64,000 bases of DNA. Origin: an uncultured Flavobacteriales bacterium (lineage in GTDB: Bacteria; Bacteroidota; Bacteroidia; CAIKAF01). Shown in pieces: positions 40,225-47,270 of the stretch. Under the pieces are notes generated by a model, which saw nothing but the letters and a program-made list of their open reading frames with translations, was not told the origin of the DNA and did not search any database. The first letter of the stretch is position 1. Each line of letters opens with the position of its first letter. Location of the stretch: positions 124,001 to 188,000 of the forward strand of contig CAIKAF010000023.1 in assembly GCA_903825395.1 (NCBI GenBank), given 5' to 3'. The position numbers and the translations under genes were made by a program.

Positions 40225-42600
40225 TTAATTCCGTAAAGGTTTGCCCGTTTTAAGCATGTGTTGTATGCGCTGTAGGGTGGGCTTTGTTCCCAATAGACTT
40301 AGAAAAGCCTCCCTCTCTAAATCCAACAAATAGGTTTCACTGACCGGACTGGGCTGGGTTAAATCTCCACCGCACATCACATAGCCTAATTTTTCAGATA
40401 TCAGTCGGTCGTGTTCGCTGATGTAATGTCCGGCTTGCATGCTGTTGGCACCGGCATAGACAATACCCAAGCCTTCTCGGCCCAGCACTTGAATGTCGGT
40501 TCGTTCTTGTGGACGAACGTATCCGGCTTCGGCCATCAATAAAACCGTTTGTTTGGCAAGCCCGATGCGCTGTGCCCCATTCATAACCAGGCGATCTAGG
40601 CCCGGCCGGAAAATCCCAAGCTCAAAGGCCTGTAAGGCCGAGGTGGCCACCCTGGCTTGACCTATGGTTAAAAATCGATTCCTCAACACATTGGTGCGTA
40701 TGCCGCCTTCTCCAAATTCATTGGCGGCCCGAAGGGCAAATTCCTTGCTGCCTCCCCCACCGGGAATCAAGCCTACACCCACTTCGACCAATCCGATGTA
40801 GGTTTCGGCGCTGGCCACAATGGCATCGGCATGCAGGCACATTTCACATCCTCCACCCAGGGTTAGCCCGTGCGGAGCTACCACAACCGGTATGCTGGAA
40901 TACCTCAACCGCATGGTGGCTTTTTGAAAAGCCTTAACAGCGAAGTTGAGTTCATCCCATTCCTGCTCTATGGCCAGCATCAAAATCAAGGCCAAATTGG
41001 CCCCGGCCGAAAAATTCTCTCCATCGTTGGAAATCACCAAGCCATTCCAGCCTTCGGTTTCGGCCATATCAATGGCTTTATGCAATCCTTGTATGACCTC
41101 GGCTCCAATGGAATTCATTTTGGTATGAAAGGAGAGGTTCAAAACCCCATCGCCCAGATTGGTAATCCGAGTCCCTGAATTTGACCAAAGCGTATGTTCA
41201 GGGTACACATTTGACAGCACGATAAACCCTTCCTTTCCCGGTACGGGCTGCTGGTTCCCCTGCGCTAAGGAATGGTACTGAACTTGACCTTCAAGCCTAG
41301 TATAAAAGCGTTTTTCGCCCTTTGCTTGCATGGCTTTAATCCAGTCTGGCACAAGAATTCCGGCCAAGTCCATTTCTGAAACGACCCAATCAAACCCTAG
41401 GGCATCCCAAATTTCAAACGGCCCATGACTCCAGCCAAATCCCGCCTTTAACGCTTCATCTACTTTATACACTTCGCCCGCAATAATGGGCATTTGTTCG
41501 GCCGAGTACGACAATAAATCCAAGAACAATTCCTTGAAAAAGGGCCCTGGAGCGTCTGCCGATTTCAATAAAATGTCCAAGCGGGCTAACGGGTCTTCCA
41601 GCGGTTTCATCCGTTCCAAAATGGGTCCCTTGTATTTTTCTTGAGGTCGGTATTCCATGCGCTGAACATCCAAAATATGAATGTCTGAGCTGCCGTCTTC
41701 CTGGCGCACCTTCTTAAAAAAACCCTGTCCCGATTTTTGCCCCAGCCAACCTCGATTCACCATTTCGGTTAAAAATTGAGGCATAGAAAAGGTTTGGCTT
41801 TCTCGGGGCCCCGTAGCTTGGGCATGCAAACCTTGAGCCACCTTAACAAAGGTATCTAGGCCAACCACATCGGCCGTTCTGAATGTAGCCGACTTTGGCC
41901 GTCCGATCAAGGGCCCTGAAAACCGTTCAATGGTTTCGGGCAGCACATCGCTGTTTTCCATTAAATGCAATAAGCGCATCATGGAGTACACCCCTATTCG
42001 ATTGGCAATAAATCCGGGCGTATCTCGACATTGAACGGTGGTTTTCCCTAAAAATTTCCGACCAAATTCCATAAAGAAATCAACCCAATGCGCCTCTGTT
42101 TGTGCCGAAGGAATGATTTCAAGAAGGTTTAAATAGCGCGGCGGATTAAAAAAGTGCGTTCCTAAAAAACAAGAAACAAAATCAGGGCTCCGCCCTTGCA
42201 GCAAACTGCCAATCGGAATGCCAGAAGTGTTGGTACTTACGGGCACACCGGGGCGGCGGTGCGGCTCAATGGCTTCATACAAAGCCATTTTGTCTTCTCT
42301 ACGCTCAATAATGCACTCCAAAATCCAATCTGCTTCGGCCAGGCGCGGCAGGTGGTCGCGGAAGTTTCCCGTTCGAATTCTCGATTTCAGATTGCTGCTG
42401 AACAAAGGGGCCGGATTCATTTTAATGGCTGCTTCTAAGGAGGTGCGGGCCAACTCATCCACAGTCCCTTTCTCGCCTTCCAGCACGCGATCCAATAAAT
42501 CCACACTGAATCCGGCATTGGCCAAATGGCAAGCAATTTGAGAGCCCATTACGCCCGAGCCCAACACGGCTATCCGATTAATTTTCCAAGGCCATTTCAT
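40225..42600 (-). CDS. fadN: 3-hydroxyacyl-CoA dehydrogenase / enoyl-CoA hydratase fusion, FadN-like
   Basis: A 791-residue bifunctional enzyme. The NAD-binding 3-hydroxyacyl-CoA dehydrogenase is N-terminal (IAVLGSGVMGSQIACHLANAG at about residues 9-29; FIANRIGVYSM), and the crotonase-fold hydratase is C-terminal (LSFHTKMNSIG, ENFSAGANLALI, LTLGGGCEMCLHADAIVA). This order is that of Bacillus FadN, the reverse of Escherichia FadB. The ATG at 42600 starts 23 bp inside the marR gene; the longer frame lacks support. Operon order marR-fadN-fadA-fadE parallels Bacillus fadNAE. Confidence 0.93.
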   Translation of the reverse strand: MKWPWKINRIAVLGSGVMGSQIACHLANAGFSVDLLDRVLEGEKGTVDELARTSLEAAIKMNPAPLFSSNLKSRIRTGNFRDHLPRLAEADWILECIIERREDKMALYEAIEPHRRPGVPVSTNTSGIPIGSLLQGRSPDFVSCFLGTHFFNPPRYLNLLEIIPSAQTEAHWVDFFMEFGRKFLGKTTVQCRDTPGFIANRIGVYSMMRLLHLMENSDVLPETIERFSGPLIGRPKSATFRTADVVGLDTFVKVAQGLHAQATGPRESQTFSMPQFLTEMVNRGWLGQKSGQGFFKKVRQEDGSSDIHILDVQRMEYRPQEKYKGPILERMKPLEDPLARLDILLKSADAPGPFFKELFLDLLSYSAEQMPIIAGEVYKVDEALKAGFGWSHGPFEIWDALGFDWVVSEMDLAGILVPDWIKAMQAKGEKRFYTRLEGQVQYHSLAQGNQQPVPGKEGFIVLSNVYPEHTLWSNSGTRITNLGDGVLNLSFHTKMNSIGAEVIQGLHKAIDMAETEGWNGLVISNDGENFSAGANLALILMLAIEQEWDELNFAVKAFQKATMRLRYSSIPVVVAPHGLTLGGGCEMCLHADAIVASAETYIGLVEVGVGLIPGGGGSKEFALRAANEFGEGGIRTNVLRNRFLTIGQARVATSALQAFELGIFRPGLDRLVMNGAQRIGLAKQTVLLMAEAGYVRPQERTDIQVLGREGLGIVYAGANSMQAGHYISEHDRLISEKLGYVMCGGDLTQPSPVSETYLLDLEREAFLSLLGTKPTLQRIQHMLKTGKPLRN

Positions 42601-43087
42601 GCTCAATAGATTTTGTTTTTTTGATATTCGTTGCAGGTTTGGAATTTTGCTCTGCAAACTCAGAAGCATATTGAGGAATGTGCTCCAACATGTGCTGCAG
42701 CAGCTGCCATTGTTCCGGCGACCATTTTCCCATCAAAAACTGCTGAAAGGCCTTGACGGTTTGACTGGCTTCTTTTCTGAATTTCAGGCCTTGAGGGGTC
42801 AAAAAAACCCGCATCATACGTTTATCTTGGGTGTCTAATCTGCGCTTTATCCAACCTTTTGATTCCAGTCCGTTCAGGCTGCGAGACAGGCTTCGGGCGC
42901 TCAATCCCAGCAAGGGGCCAAGGTGAGTTACGGCAACACCTTCCCGCGGAACATTCAACAGCAAAAAGCCGGTAGAGCTGCTAATGCCCTTGGCCAAACC
43001 CAAGGTATTGTACATGCGAAATATGGCATGCCAGGCCGTTTTCACGCTAAAACAAGCTGTACTTTTTTGTTCTGCCCGTAGTCCCAT
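42578..43087 (-). CDS. MarR-family regulator of the fad operon
   Basis: A 169-residue winged-helix regulator: AVTHLGPLLGLSARSLSRSLNGLESKGWIKR is the HTH and RLDTQDKRMMRVFLTPQGLKF the wing. It is the first gene of the beta-oxidation operon and overlaps fadN by 23 bp. A 14-bp perfect palindrome 20 bp upstream of its start is a likely operator, so it probably represses its own operon and responds to an acyl-CoA. The ligand is inferred from the neighbours. Confidence 0.86.
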   Translation of the reverse strand: MGLRAEQKSTACFSVKTAWHAIFRMYNTLGLAKGISSSTGFLLLNVPREGVAVTHLGPLLGLSARSLSRSLNGLESKGWIKRRLDTQDKRMMRVFLTPQGLKFRKEASQTVKAFQQFLMGKWSPEQWQLLQHMLEHIPQYASEFAEQNSKPATNIKKTKSIEHEMALEN

Positions 43088-43388: not shown

Positions 43389-45185
43389 TTAATACAAGCG
43401 GTGGTTTATAGAAAAACCACAGCCCAAGCCTCCATAGGTTTGGCGCAGCGCATGCTCCTGACTGTACACTGGGCTTAACCCCATGCGGACATCAAGGTGA
43501 ACGGCCGCCGACCAACGCCGCGACAGTTTCCATCCGGCCTTGAGCCTTGCTGTGGCATCAAACCCTACTCCATTCCACACATTTGGTTCTGCCGGGGTAG
43601 TCGGTGATATGTTGGTAGAACCGGTTGACATGTATGCCAAACCACGCCCTTCCATAAAGAAATTTATGGCCAGGCCAAGATCGGCTTGAGCAAACCAACG
43701 GCCACGCTCGTACCGATAGCCTATGGCAAGAGGCAGGCTGATGTATGAAGCCCTTGCAGAGTATGCAATCCGGGTGGTATCCAACTTGTCTTTTAATTCC
43801 GGCTTTTCATAGCTGTAAATTACAGTGGTGTCAACACCAAACTGGTTGGTAAAGCTGATGGTATCTGTTACAAAAACAGGCACAATCATTGAACTGTATG
43901 AAAAGTGCAAATCGCTTTGCTGATATGTCAGCCGAAGCATTCCAAGCCCGGTACGCACATACAAGGAACGAAATCCAAATTCAATTCCGGCCTGAACCTG
44001 ATATGAAAAATCGGGCGCTTGAAGTCTCGATTCCAAATCCTGATAGGCCTCCGGATTGAGCAATGCGCTTTTCTTCCCTTGATAATCGGGATTCTCGGAA
44101 AAATACATCTGGGTTGCCAAAGCAGTAACTTCCAACTGACCACGTACAGAAAAAGCAGCCGGGCGGCGCTGTGGACTGCGCAGATACACCTTGCCAATGT
44201 GAGGGCGTTTCCAATGGGTGTTGAAGGAACTCCAGCTGAATACAGGTTCAATGCGGCGGGCCTGATATTTTTCCCACATGGGCTCCAATGGCTCTAAATT
44301 GGCATGCTTTCGACCTTGATTTGTAGATTGACCGGCTTCTGAGACCACAGGCTTTTTCGTTCCAGACCTACCCTTGGACTGCGAATTGCGGGCAGTGCGA
44401 TTGCCTGTATTTTGACGGACATTCTTACCGGCATTTCGATTGGGAATGGCGGAATGGACCTGGCCTGCCCCTTGTTCTACAGGGGTATCGTCAGTCTCAT
44501 ATCCAAGCTCTGATGGTTCTGGGCTGTTGCCGGTTTGACCTTGTTTTTCTGTTCGCTCCAGCGCAATGGAATGGGAATTGGTCTCTTCCTGTTCGTTTCC
44601 TATAGCCACAGATTCGCCTTGATTTGAATTCAGTTGAGCCCGGTCTTGTTGATCTCCCTGAGCAGTTGAAATGGAATGAGCTTCGTTTGTTCCATTCGAC
44701 TCCGAGTTCAACCACAGCGTTGGCGCCAGGATGGAGGCAGAGCCGAAGAACAACAGCAATAGCAAGAGGGCGGCCACCCTTCTGCGCTTTCTAGCTTGAA
44801 GTTTCCGTTGAATTTGAACAAAGACGTGGTCAGAAGGCTGAATGCGGAACGAGGCTGCTTTTTCGCTCAGTTCGGGCAAATGAGAACCGTCTAGGCCCTG
44901 TTGAATTTTTGTGAACAAGCCCTCAGAAGGTTCCACGCGAAGCTGTTCAGCTTGTTCTTGCAGCACAGGGACTAAGGCCTCTGGCAATCCCGCCTGAATG
45001 GAAGCGAACAATCCTGCAGAAGGCTCTACTTTGAATGAGTCTGCAGATTCTTTTAAGCCGGGAATAGCCTGACCAGGCAGCTCCTTTTGGATCTGCCTGA
45101 AAATTCGGCCGGAAGGAGTCACTCTGAACTCCCCCGCACGCTTACGCAGAAGTTCGAACCACTTTACCGACATAGGGAATAGCAT
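43389..45185 (-). CDS. Sigma-factor-linked membrane protein: four N-terminal 31-residue repeats, one TM helix, C-terminal barrel-like domain
   Basis: A 598-residue protein. Residues 11-130 hold four tandem repeats of exactly 31 residues, with prolines at 24, 55, 86 and 117 and the pattern F-R-V-x-P-S-x-x-L-F-x-x-I-Q-x-x-L. A basic stretch and one transmembrane helix (about 137-155) follow, then a Ser/Gln/Asn-rich linker. The C-terminal 250 residues are barrel-like (FGFRSLYVRTGLGML, AQADLGLAINFF, GLGCGFSINHRLY). Its start overlaps the ECF sigma gene by 44 bp (or 32 bp from the second ATG). It probably acts as an anti-sigma or signal transducer; a related single motif occurs in many such Bacteroidota proteins. 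Confidence 0.7.
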   Translation of the reverse strand: MLFPMSVKWFELLRKRAGEFRVTPSGRIFRQIQKELPGQAIPGLKESADSFKVEPSAGLFASIQAGLPEALVPVLQEQAEQLRVEPSEGLFTKIQQGLDGSHLPELSEKAASFRIQPSDHVFVQIQRKLQARKRRRVAALLLLLLFFGSASILAPTLWLNSESNGTNEAHSISTAQGDQQDRAQLNSNQGESVAIGNEQEETNSHSIALERTEKQGQTGNSPEPSELGYETDDTPVEQGAGQVHSAIPNRNAGKNVRQNTGNRTARNSQSKGRSGTKKPVVSEAGQSTNQGRKHANLEPLEPMWEKYQARRIEPVFSWSSFNTHWKRPHIGKVYLRSPQRRPAAFSVRGQLEVTALATQMYFSENPDYQGKKSALLNPEAYQDLESRLQAPDFSYQVQAGIEFGFRSLYVRTGLGMLRLTYQQSDLHFSYSSMIVPVFVTDTISFTNQFGVDTTVIYSYEKPELKDKLDTTRIAYSARASYISLPLAIGYRYERGRWFAQADLGLAINFFMEGRGLAYMSTGSTNISPTTPAEPNVWNGVGFDATARLKAGWKLSRRWSAAVHLDVRMGLSPVYSQEHALRQTYGGLGCGFSINHRLY

Positions 45186-45750: not shown

Positions 45751-47196
45751 TTAAGGTGTTAAGGTAAATCGAACAAATCGGCCATTGGGCCAGGAAAGGA
45801 CATAGGTTCCGGGGGGTAAATCACCAATGCTTAGTTGGGCGTTGTGTTCCAATTTCCGGGAGCCTAATTGTTGTCCTCGCTCATTGGTCAAAAGGGCTTC
45901 CATTCCGAGCATATCGGCTGGCAAGCTTGACAAATGAAGGGTTTTGCCTGAACATGGATTTGGAAAGGCCATTGGCTCTTTTTCATCTCCTCCAAATTCA
46001 ACCACAGAGGTGGCCTCCTGATGGCTATACCCAAAATAGTAAGCGGGAGTTTGATTGATGGTGCTAAACAATCCGGCCACAAACAAGGTGCCATTGATTT
46101 CCAATACATCTTGGACGGTAGAATCGGCGAAGCTATCTCCGGTCAGGCCAACCCCTGCATCCAATCTAAGCATATTTCTTCCGGGACGGGTATTGGGATC
46201 TAAGGGTTGATATAAGAAATTGCCGCTGGCATAGAGTTGCCTGATTGAGAAATAATCGGGGTGATGGTTTTCTATGCTTTTGATTTTCCAAAAGCCCATG
46301 GATGCCAGTTGGGTAGGAGAAAAGGTTGATGTATTGTTGAAAAAATCGAGGGTAATTAAATTGTTCCATTGGTTGTTGACCAGTTTTGCCAAACCAAAGG
46401 TGTCGTAGCCCGACAATAAAGCTCCGCCGGCATACAATTCATTTTGAAACACCTCCATAGAATATACTGGAGCTCCGGGGCTTCCGGGGGCCCATCCGTT
46501 GCTGCCATCCCAACCAAACACATGCAGACTGGGCATAATTCCGCTGTGGTTAAATTCTCCTCCTACCATTAGTTTTCCTTGCCATTCAACCATCGTTCTT
46601 ACCACTCCGTTAAAAGCAAATCCGGGACTAATCCAAGATCCGTCTGTGTACTTTGCGATGAACGAAAGTTGATTGCCGCTCATGTTAATCGCAAAATTCC
46701 CGCCGGCGAACAATTTATTTTGATACACCTGTAAGCACAAAACCTTAGCCCCAAGAGTGCCGACAGGCTCCCAACCGTTTGCGCCCAATCGACAAACCCC
46801 GTATGTTTTACCGTCCGACCAGTTGAAATCACCGCCCGCATACAGCGTATCGTTAAAAAATATCAAATCGTTTACTGCCCCTGGCAGTCCACCTGCCACC
46901 TCAAACCACTGATTGGTACCTGGATTATAGCCTGCCACATGCCCATCTCCTTGAGTGGTGCCGGCTAAAAATGAGGTAAATGATCCACCCACAAAAATCA
47001 GTCCGCTGGCGCTGTCGTATTCCATGGTTAGCACTGGTCCGTTGGGACCTCCTGTAACGCCATAAAAGACACTTAAGCCGGGGGCCTGTTCCGGATCTCC
47101 CCCGTTTTGGCAGACCACACGACCTTCCAACGCATGGCCTGCCGTAACAAACAGGGGAATAAGAAATGCTGAGAACAGCAAAAAAGTATATCGCAA
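45751..47196 (-). CDS. T9SS-secreted beta-propeller-like protein
   Basis: A protein of about 480 residues with a hydrophobic signal segment (TFLLFSAFLIPLFVTAG). The start is uncertain: TTG at 47196 gives a normal signal peptide, but the frame stays open to a TTG at 47259 and no ATG is available. The body has repeated blade-like units ending in LYAGGDF, LFAGGNF, LMVGGEF and LYAGGAL, typical of kelch-like or delta-60-like propellers. The C-terminus (AFPNPCSGKTLHL, LPPGTYVLSW) is a T9SS type A sorting domain. It lies 24 bp upstream of the sigma gene on the same strand. Confidence 0.78.
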   Translation of the reverse strand: MRYTFLLFSAFLIPLFVTAGHALEGRVVCQNGGDPEQAPGLSVFYGVTGGPNGPVLTMEYDSASGLIFVGGSFTSFLAGTTQGDGHVAGYNPGTNQWFEVAGGLPGAVNDLIFFNDTLYAGGDFNWSDGKTYGVCRLGANGWEPVGTLGAKVLCLQVYQNKLFAGGNFAINMSGNQLSFIAKYTDGSWISPGFAFNGVVRTMVEWQGKLMVGGEFNHSGIMPSLHVFGWDGSNGWAPGSPGAPVYSMEVFQNELYAGGALLSGYDTFGLAKLVNNQWNNLITLDFFNNTSTFSPTQLASMGFWKIKSIENHHPDYFSIRQLYASGNFLYQPLDPNTRPGRNMLRLDAGVGLTGDSFADSTVQDVLEINGTLFVAGLFSTINQTPAYYFGYSHQEATSVVEFGGDEKEPMAFPNPCSGKTLHLSSLPADMLGMEALLTNERGQQLGSRKLEHNAQLSIGDLPPGTYVLSWPNGRFVRFTLTP

Positions 47197-47270
47197 AATG
47201 CAATTCACGCAGTGTAGACAAGTAAAAGTTAAAAACGCTGCGTTACTTTGTAAGAACAAGTTGCTGGCCT

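Follow-up and report, generated by a model that had tools for sequence, protein, structure and literature searches.

Anti-sigma factors of the Dma (dual membrane-spanning anti-sigma) type combine an N-terminal sigma-binding region with one transmembrane helix, a long disordered tether and a C-terminal beta-barrel, and their genes adjoin ECF sigma genes. Dma2 has been described with one N-terminal domain and without repeats. The class II anti-sigma factor CnrY has a single clamp and no outer-membrane barrel. Class I anti-sigma domains average about 100 residues, and in the Bacteroidetes a gene for a class I anti-sigma factor adjoins only 6% of the ECF genes (PMC7406223). How the numerous ECF sigma factors of the Bacteroidota are held back is largely open, and the 31-residue unit found in this analysis is a candidate for a large part of the machinery.

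The stretch of DNA analysed (the window, 64,000 nucleotides from an uncultured Flavobacteriales bacterium) contains an ECF sigma gene and, next to it, an ORF of 598 codons (43389-45185, minus strand), in which four gap-free 31-residue units precede a transmembrane helix (Table 1). The two reading frames differ and overlap by 44 nt. Met5 (45173) is probably the true start of the repeat protein, since the single-unit orthologues begin there. The protein has a Dma-like architecture. Its N-terminal sigma-binding region is supported computationally by unit homology, coevolution and partner ranking. AlphaFold2, run on the full protein with a shallow alignment of 20 sequences, predicts a helix at residues 119-157 that contains the transmembrane segment, disorder at 153-340 (pLDDT below 50) and barrel strands at 345-596, OmpA/NspA-like by Foldseek (OmpA 9fzd, TMt 0.72; NspA, TMt 0.61). 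The barrel region matches Pfam OMP_b-brl at E=0.07, below the cut-off. Two helices are predicted in each unit, with an array pLDDT of mostly 31-53 that may partly reflect the shallow alignment. The partners of Dma factors are ECF21-family sigma genes; with Sig70_bacteroi1 the window sigma reaches a score of 90, where the cut-off is 126.

The operon probably begins with the Rax2-like beta-propeller gene, a possible operon member whose product might be a ligand or target of the switch. A gene of this type also lies upstream of sigma in the loci of relatives. Downstream of the repeat gene and on the same strand (40225-43087), a gene for a MarR-family regulator overlaps a 3-hydroxyacyl-CoA dehydrogenase/enoyl-CoA hydratase fusion gene.

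Table 1. Features of the sigma/repeat-protein locus, in window coordinates.
Feature	Position	Strand	Evidence and remarks
Beta-propeller gene	45751..47259	-	Pfam Rax2 E=7e-11; same strand, 24-nt gap to the downstream sigma gene
Gene for the ECF sigma partner of the repeat protein, 194 aa	45142..45726	-	Pfam Sigma70_r2 E=1e-14, Sigma70_r4_2 E=2e-14; TIGR02937 above cut-off
Gene for a putative Dma-type anti-sigma factor with four units, 594 aa counted from Met5	43389..45173	-	ORF as listed begins 45185
Unit 1, residues 8-38, KWFELLRKRAGEFRVTPSGRIFRQIQKELPG	45072..45164	-	Profile 17.5 bits; own-sigma percentile 4.6
Unit 2, residues 39-69, QAIPGLKESADSFKVEPSAGLFASIQAGLPE	44979..45071	-	Profile 14.9 bits; own-sigma percentile 5.7
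Unit 3, residues 70-100, ALVPVLQEQAEQLRVEPSEGLFTKIQQGLDG	44886..44978	-	Profile 20.2 bits; own-sigma percentile 14.4
Unit 4, residues 101-131, SHLPELSEKAASFRIQPSDHVFVQIQRKLQA	44793..44885	-	Profile 14.2 bits; own-sigma percentile 2.1
Predicted single transmembrane helix behind basic patch, residues about 135-156	44718..44783	-	Hydropathy; AF2 helix 119-157
Predicted disordered periplasmic tether, residues about 157-340	44166..44717	-	pLDDT mostly about 30-43; dN/dS 0.62-0.66
Predicted C-terminal outer-membrane beta-barrel, residues about 345-596	43398..44153	-	Strands, mostly high pLDDT; Foldseek to 8-stranded OMPs

The period is exactly 31 across the first 133 residues of the ORF. The mean BLOSUM62 self-match of the array is 1.63 at lag 31, followed by the multiples 62 (1.31) and 93 (1.15). 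The best lag of shuffled arrays (n=4000) averaged -0.37 (SD 0.11, maximum 0.31), and the period z of the array is about 17. Prolines at residues 24, 55, 86 and 117 recur every 31 residues without gaps together with F/L, I-Q and L columns, as the initial annotation had described and as the translated ORF reproduces. The (near-)invariant columns, in the numbering of the periodicity analysis, are L3, A7, F10, P14, S15, F19, I22, Q23 and L26, and the unit motif, with two predicted helices, is xFxxLFxxxLxxFxVxPSxxhWxxIxxxL. The repeats had also been called exact. This holds for their spacing, which is exact and gap-free, but not for their sequence, where two units share only 11-15 of 31 residues (35-48%). 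The coding DNA of unit pairs agrees at 37-49 of 93 nucleotides (about 40-53%); with such identities at both levels, the duplication of the units must be old. A recent DNA duplication or an assembly artefact was ruled out by this nucleotide identity, by TRF, which found no tandem repeat in the unit-coding DNA, and by the presence of the array in four genomes. No known domain was found in the array with Pfam and NCBIfam, and no curated family covers the unit at the family's own cut-off. Phage records gave no match, and nothing relevant was found among PDB sequences, whether the query was the array, the profile of the unit or its consensus.

Related ECF sigma loci were gathered by a sigma profile and direct fetches, and the downstream gene was taken as the partner; the survey is anchored on sigmas similar to the window's and is not a phylum census. 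Units were called at a threshold of 6 bits with a profile built from 95 single-copy N-termini, the window's genus being left out. This profile of single units from outside the genus found the window units at 14.2-20.2 bits. The maximum in 1175 shuffled N-termini was 7.9, and matches of 6-8 bits are therefore marginal. Among 235 distinct sigma/partner pairs, one unit was found in 208, two in 16, three in one, four in six and none in three. The expectation that relatives usually carry one similar motif before the transmembrane helix is thus borne out, and the count of repeats in homologues gave mostly one; multi-unit partners (two or more units; 23 of the 235 pairs) recur in the phylum, with up to five units, in both barrel proteins and short barrel-less ones. 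Second units in L070-074, L207 and L216 fall under the profile threshold and were called by eye only. A double match in L268 was an overlap artefact and was taken out of the two-unit count.

Besides the window clade, three loci have four or more units. The unrelated four-unit partner in L082 (L082:592-1476) has 294 aa, no barrel and a gap-free spacing of 32, 32, 32; stepwise growth from two to four units is suggested here because the nearest sigmas have two-unit partners. The four-unit partner in L241 (L241:944-2668; 574 aa) has spacings of 31, 31 and 34, and in L257, which has the sigma closest to that of L241, the partner carries one unit. In L202 (L202:547-2412), five unit-like segments about 32 apart lie before a transmembrane helix and a predicted barrel, three of them above the profile threshold and two called by eye only. 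Parsimony gives four changes for the four-or-more state and at least ten between single-unit and multi-unit partners, and four or more units appear to have arisen independently about four times. A profile of the four-unit protein, searched against 395 phylum genomes, found a full-length match in its own genome only. Unrelated partners with several units thus escape a search by sequence similarity alone; they were found by the sigma-anchored survey.

In the genus, four units were found in four genomes and one unit in two. The three further four-unit genes are in identical register (91%, 61% and 62% identity to the window protein), and the one-unit genes are syntenic orthologues whose protein is about 29% and whose sigma is 64% identical. 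In the sigma tree, the sisters of the four-unit group (the pair L006/L007) and its next neighbour, L056, each have a one-unit partner, and a change from one to four units is therefore the likely direction. Matching units of the window and L004 are identical at 26, 22, 18 and 18 of 31 residues, and non-matching ones at 8-16. Since corresponding units match best, the array is older than the split of the four-unit genomes, and its units have not been homogenised. The unit dN/dS is 0-0.10 for the window versus L003 and 0.08-0.19 for L004 versus L005, against 0.62-0.66 for the tether in close pairs. To judge from these ratios, the units are under purifying selection, in contrast to the tether. At the genome's second related sigma locus (L072:1-1453), the N-terminus of the partner is degenerate, arginine- and proline-rich, and perhaps contains two decayed units.

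The initial annotation had proposed that the repeats bear on the sigma factor, and coevolution supports this. Mean-field DCA of the 196 pairs with one unit (effective number 170) gave top sigma-unit couplings of 3.45, 2.85, 2.15 and 1.63, which are on par with strong couplings inside sigma and are located outside the overlapping reading frames. The maxima were 0.99-1.61 in 15 random re-pairings and 1.12-1.75 when partners were exchanged between a sigma and the six closest ones available (mean identity 51%); in the latter swap the top three position pairs dropped to averages of 0.34, -0.03 and -0.01. Columns 3 and 6, in helix 1 of the unit, are coupled to sigma-4 (window F163, L120). Columns 13, 16 and 18, at the end of this helix and in the turn, are coupled to sigma-2 (window G32, S28, E45). 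The W/F column 22 is coupled to window sigma L135 in sigma-4. Sigma F136 pairs with unit W22, and F22 is more frequent in partners of L/I136 sigmas (Fisher p=2e-7, not phylogeny-corrected). The residue of the window sigma that is coupled to column 22 is the rarer L, and column 22 itself is the rarer F in each of the four units.

Across the Bacteroidota, the cognate sigma can be predicted from one 31-residue unit (196 pairs). When sigma clusters were held out, the cognate unit reached a median percentile of 8.7, and 51.5% of the units fell within the top decile. All four window units are compatible with the window sigma in a model trained without the genus (percentiles in Table 1), and the orthologues score similarly. 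These four scores are not four independent tests, as the units share ancestry, and part of the compatibility is inherited rather than maintained, because the units derive from one ancestral clamp; the match persists despite roughly 50-65% divergence among the units. Other multi-unit proteins gave mixed scores against their own sigmas, poor ones in L306 and L059; with the window sigma as the reference, the values of foreign multi-unit proteins were scattered from 0.05 to 0.98.

A contact with sigma is likewise predicted, from the coevolution and from the structure model of a different pair. The structure prediction suggested at the outset gave a confident joined model, but of a single-unit pair from another genome (L285), in which the sigma stop was read as glycine as a modelling device only. 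In this chain (18 paired sequences) the unit helices have a pLDDT of 88-95, the overall pTM is 0.78 and the sigma linker is disordered. The contrast in confidence with the array alone is suggestive and not controlled, since the array was modelled without sigma and from a different alignment. The modelled sigma was compared with anti-sigma-bound sigmas (SigW/RsiW, TMt 0.61-0.66; CnrH/CnrY, 0.56; RpoE/NepR, 0.55; SigK/RskA, 0.55; rmsd 5-10 A) and with RNAP-bound ones (TMt 0.33-0.45, rmsd 22-28 A). With high confidence, the unit joined to its sigma is predicted to adopt a compact, anti-sigma-bound geometry, which fits better than the RNAP-bound one. AlgU/MucA and sigmaE/RseA gave lower values (TMt about 0.45-0.48), consistent with different binding topologies.

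The array is real and functionally meaningful, and the idea of sigma binding is strongly backed by computation. The repeat protein is rather likely to be a Dma-type anti-sigma factor with four tandem minimal sigma clamps on its cytoplasmic end. Each unit would be a whole clamp, made of two short helices with the V-x-P-S turn between them, which would touch the adjacent ECF sigma at both sigma-2 and sigma-4 and keep it in a compact form unable to engage RNA polymerase, with CnrY on CnrH as the model for this action. By carrying four clamps on one transmembrane helix, an envelope-spanning sensor could sequester up to four sigmas, or quickly recapture one, and the sigma molecules would be set free by a signal acting on the barrel in the outer membrane. 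The units very probably bind the adjacent sigma. The chances that the array holds two or more sigmas at once, as the initial annotation had suggested, are about even, and such loading may sharpen the switch. The graded switch of the initial annotation and a tuning of the switch by the copy number of units are tentative proposals.

The linkers separating the units have only about 4-5 residues, so that neighbouring sigmas could clash on the array. The four equal sites might then hold one sigma at a time by avidity and rebinding, which would provide retention, slower release and tighter repression, not capacity. All four units look competent for this, the short linkers could stop adjacent sites from filling together, and a membrane-tethered string would be expected to favour rebinding; however, one unit already has both the sigma-2 and the sigma-4 couplings, which means that units need not cooperate on one sigma, and this explanation is unlikely. 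It is quite improbable that the units are specialised, one for the adjacent sigma and the rest for other sigmas or proteins. About 50-65% of the positions differ between units and unit 3 has the lowest score, yet all four are within the top 15% for their own sigma, carry F22, which suits sigma L135, and have core positions that are mostly invariant among the four four-unit orthologues. Two units might also share one sigma, the first clamping it with helix 1 and the second with helix 2, in a large interface or an alternating domain-swapped lattice. The domain-swapped dual-binding mode of BldN/RsbN (PMC7406223) and the regular spacing of 31 or 32 residues would suit such a composite site, which is very improbable considering that one unit suffices in 208 of 235 partners and that both halves of each window unit still score well against the window sigma. 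A structural, TPR-like alpha-solenoid acting as scaffold or spacer would match the constantly spaced two-helix 31-residue repeats, but a unit that is single in most relatives and coevolves with sigma, in an array modelled alone at low confidence, makes it highly improbable.

The unit may represent an uncatalogued, widespread sigma clamp of the Bacteroidota, used as a countable module of one to five per anti-sigma that has changed repeatedly. Its number might set how many sigmas are stored, up to four in the window protein, and hence a threshold or burst size; this broader view is somewhat doubtful. The single unit merits its own domain family, its partner specificity is predictable from sequence, and it could pair orphan sigmas with anti-sigmas. 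The one- to four-unit syntenic orthologues in one genus offer a natural experiment on binding capacity versus switch threshold and noise.

CnrY, which acts on CnrH (PDB 4cxf), is a short cytoplasmic two-helix segment, as the unit is predicted to be, and its helix 1 binds sigma-4 and its helix 2 sigma-2 (PMC7406223). The couplings of the unit to sigma-4 and sigma-2 fit CnrY-type contacts and the modelled pair resembles the CnrH conformation (TMt 0.56), from which we infer that the unit may work like CnrY. No sequence homology to CnrY was found when the unit profile and consensus were compared with PDB sequences up to E=10, and solved anti-sigma chains have no detectable sequence similarity to the unit. 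NCBIfam NF052375 (anti-sigma factor) reaches 21-31 bits against a cut-off of 100 over the unit end and transmembrane segment in L082, L138 and L146, and does not match the window protein. Class I anti-sigma domains (RsiW/SigW and others) clamp the same two sigma domains, and no full-length sigma matched the joined model with a higher TMt than RsiW-bound SigW (0.66); no class I domain was found in the window protein with Pfam up to E=1 or with NCBIfam. In the literature collection searched, no paper described tandem anti-sigma units. The window protein and the Dma factors are alike in the N-terminal sigma-binding region (predicted in the window protein), the one transmembrane helix, the long disordered tether, the C-terminal beta-barrel and the neighbouring ECF sigma gene. 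With four tandem units it differs from Dma2 as described, and from CnrY it would differ both in its four clamps and in its outer-membrane barrel.
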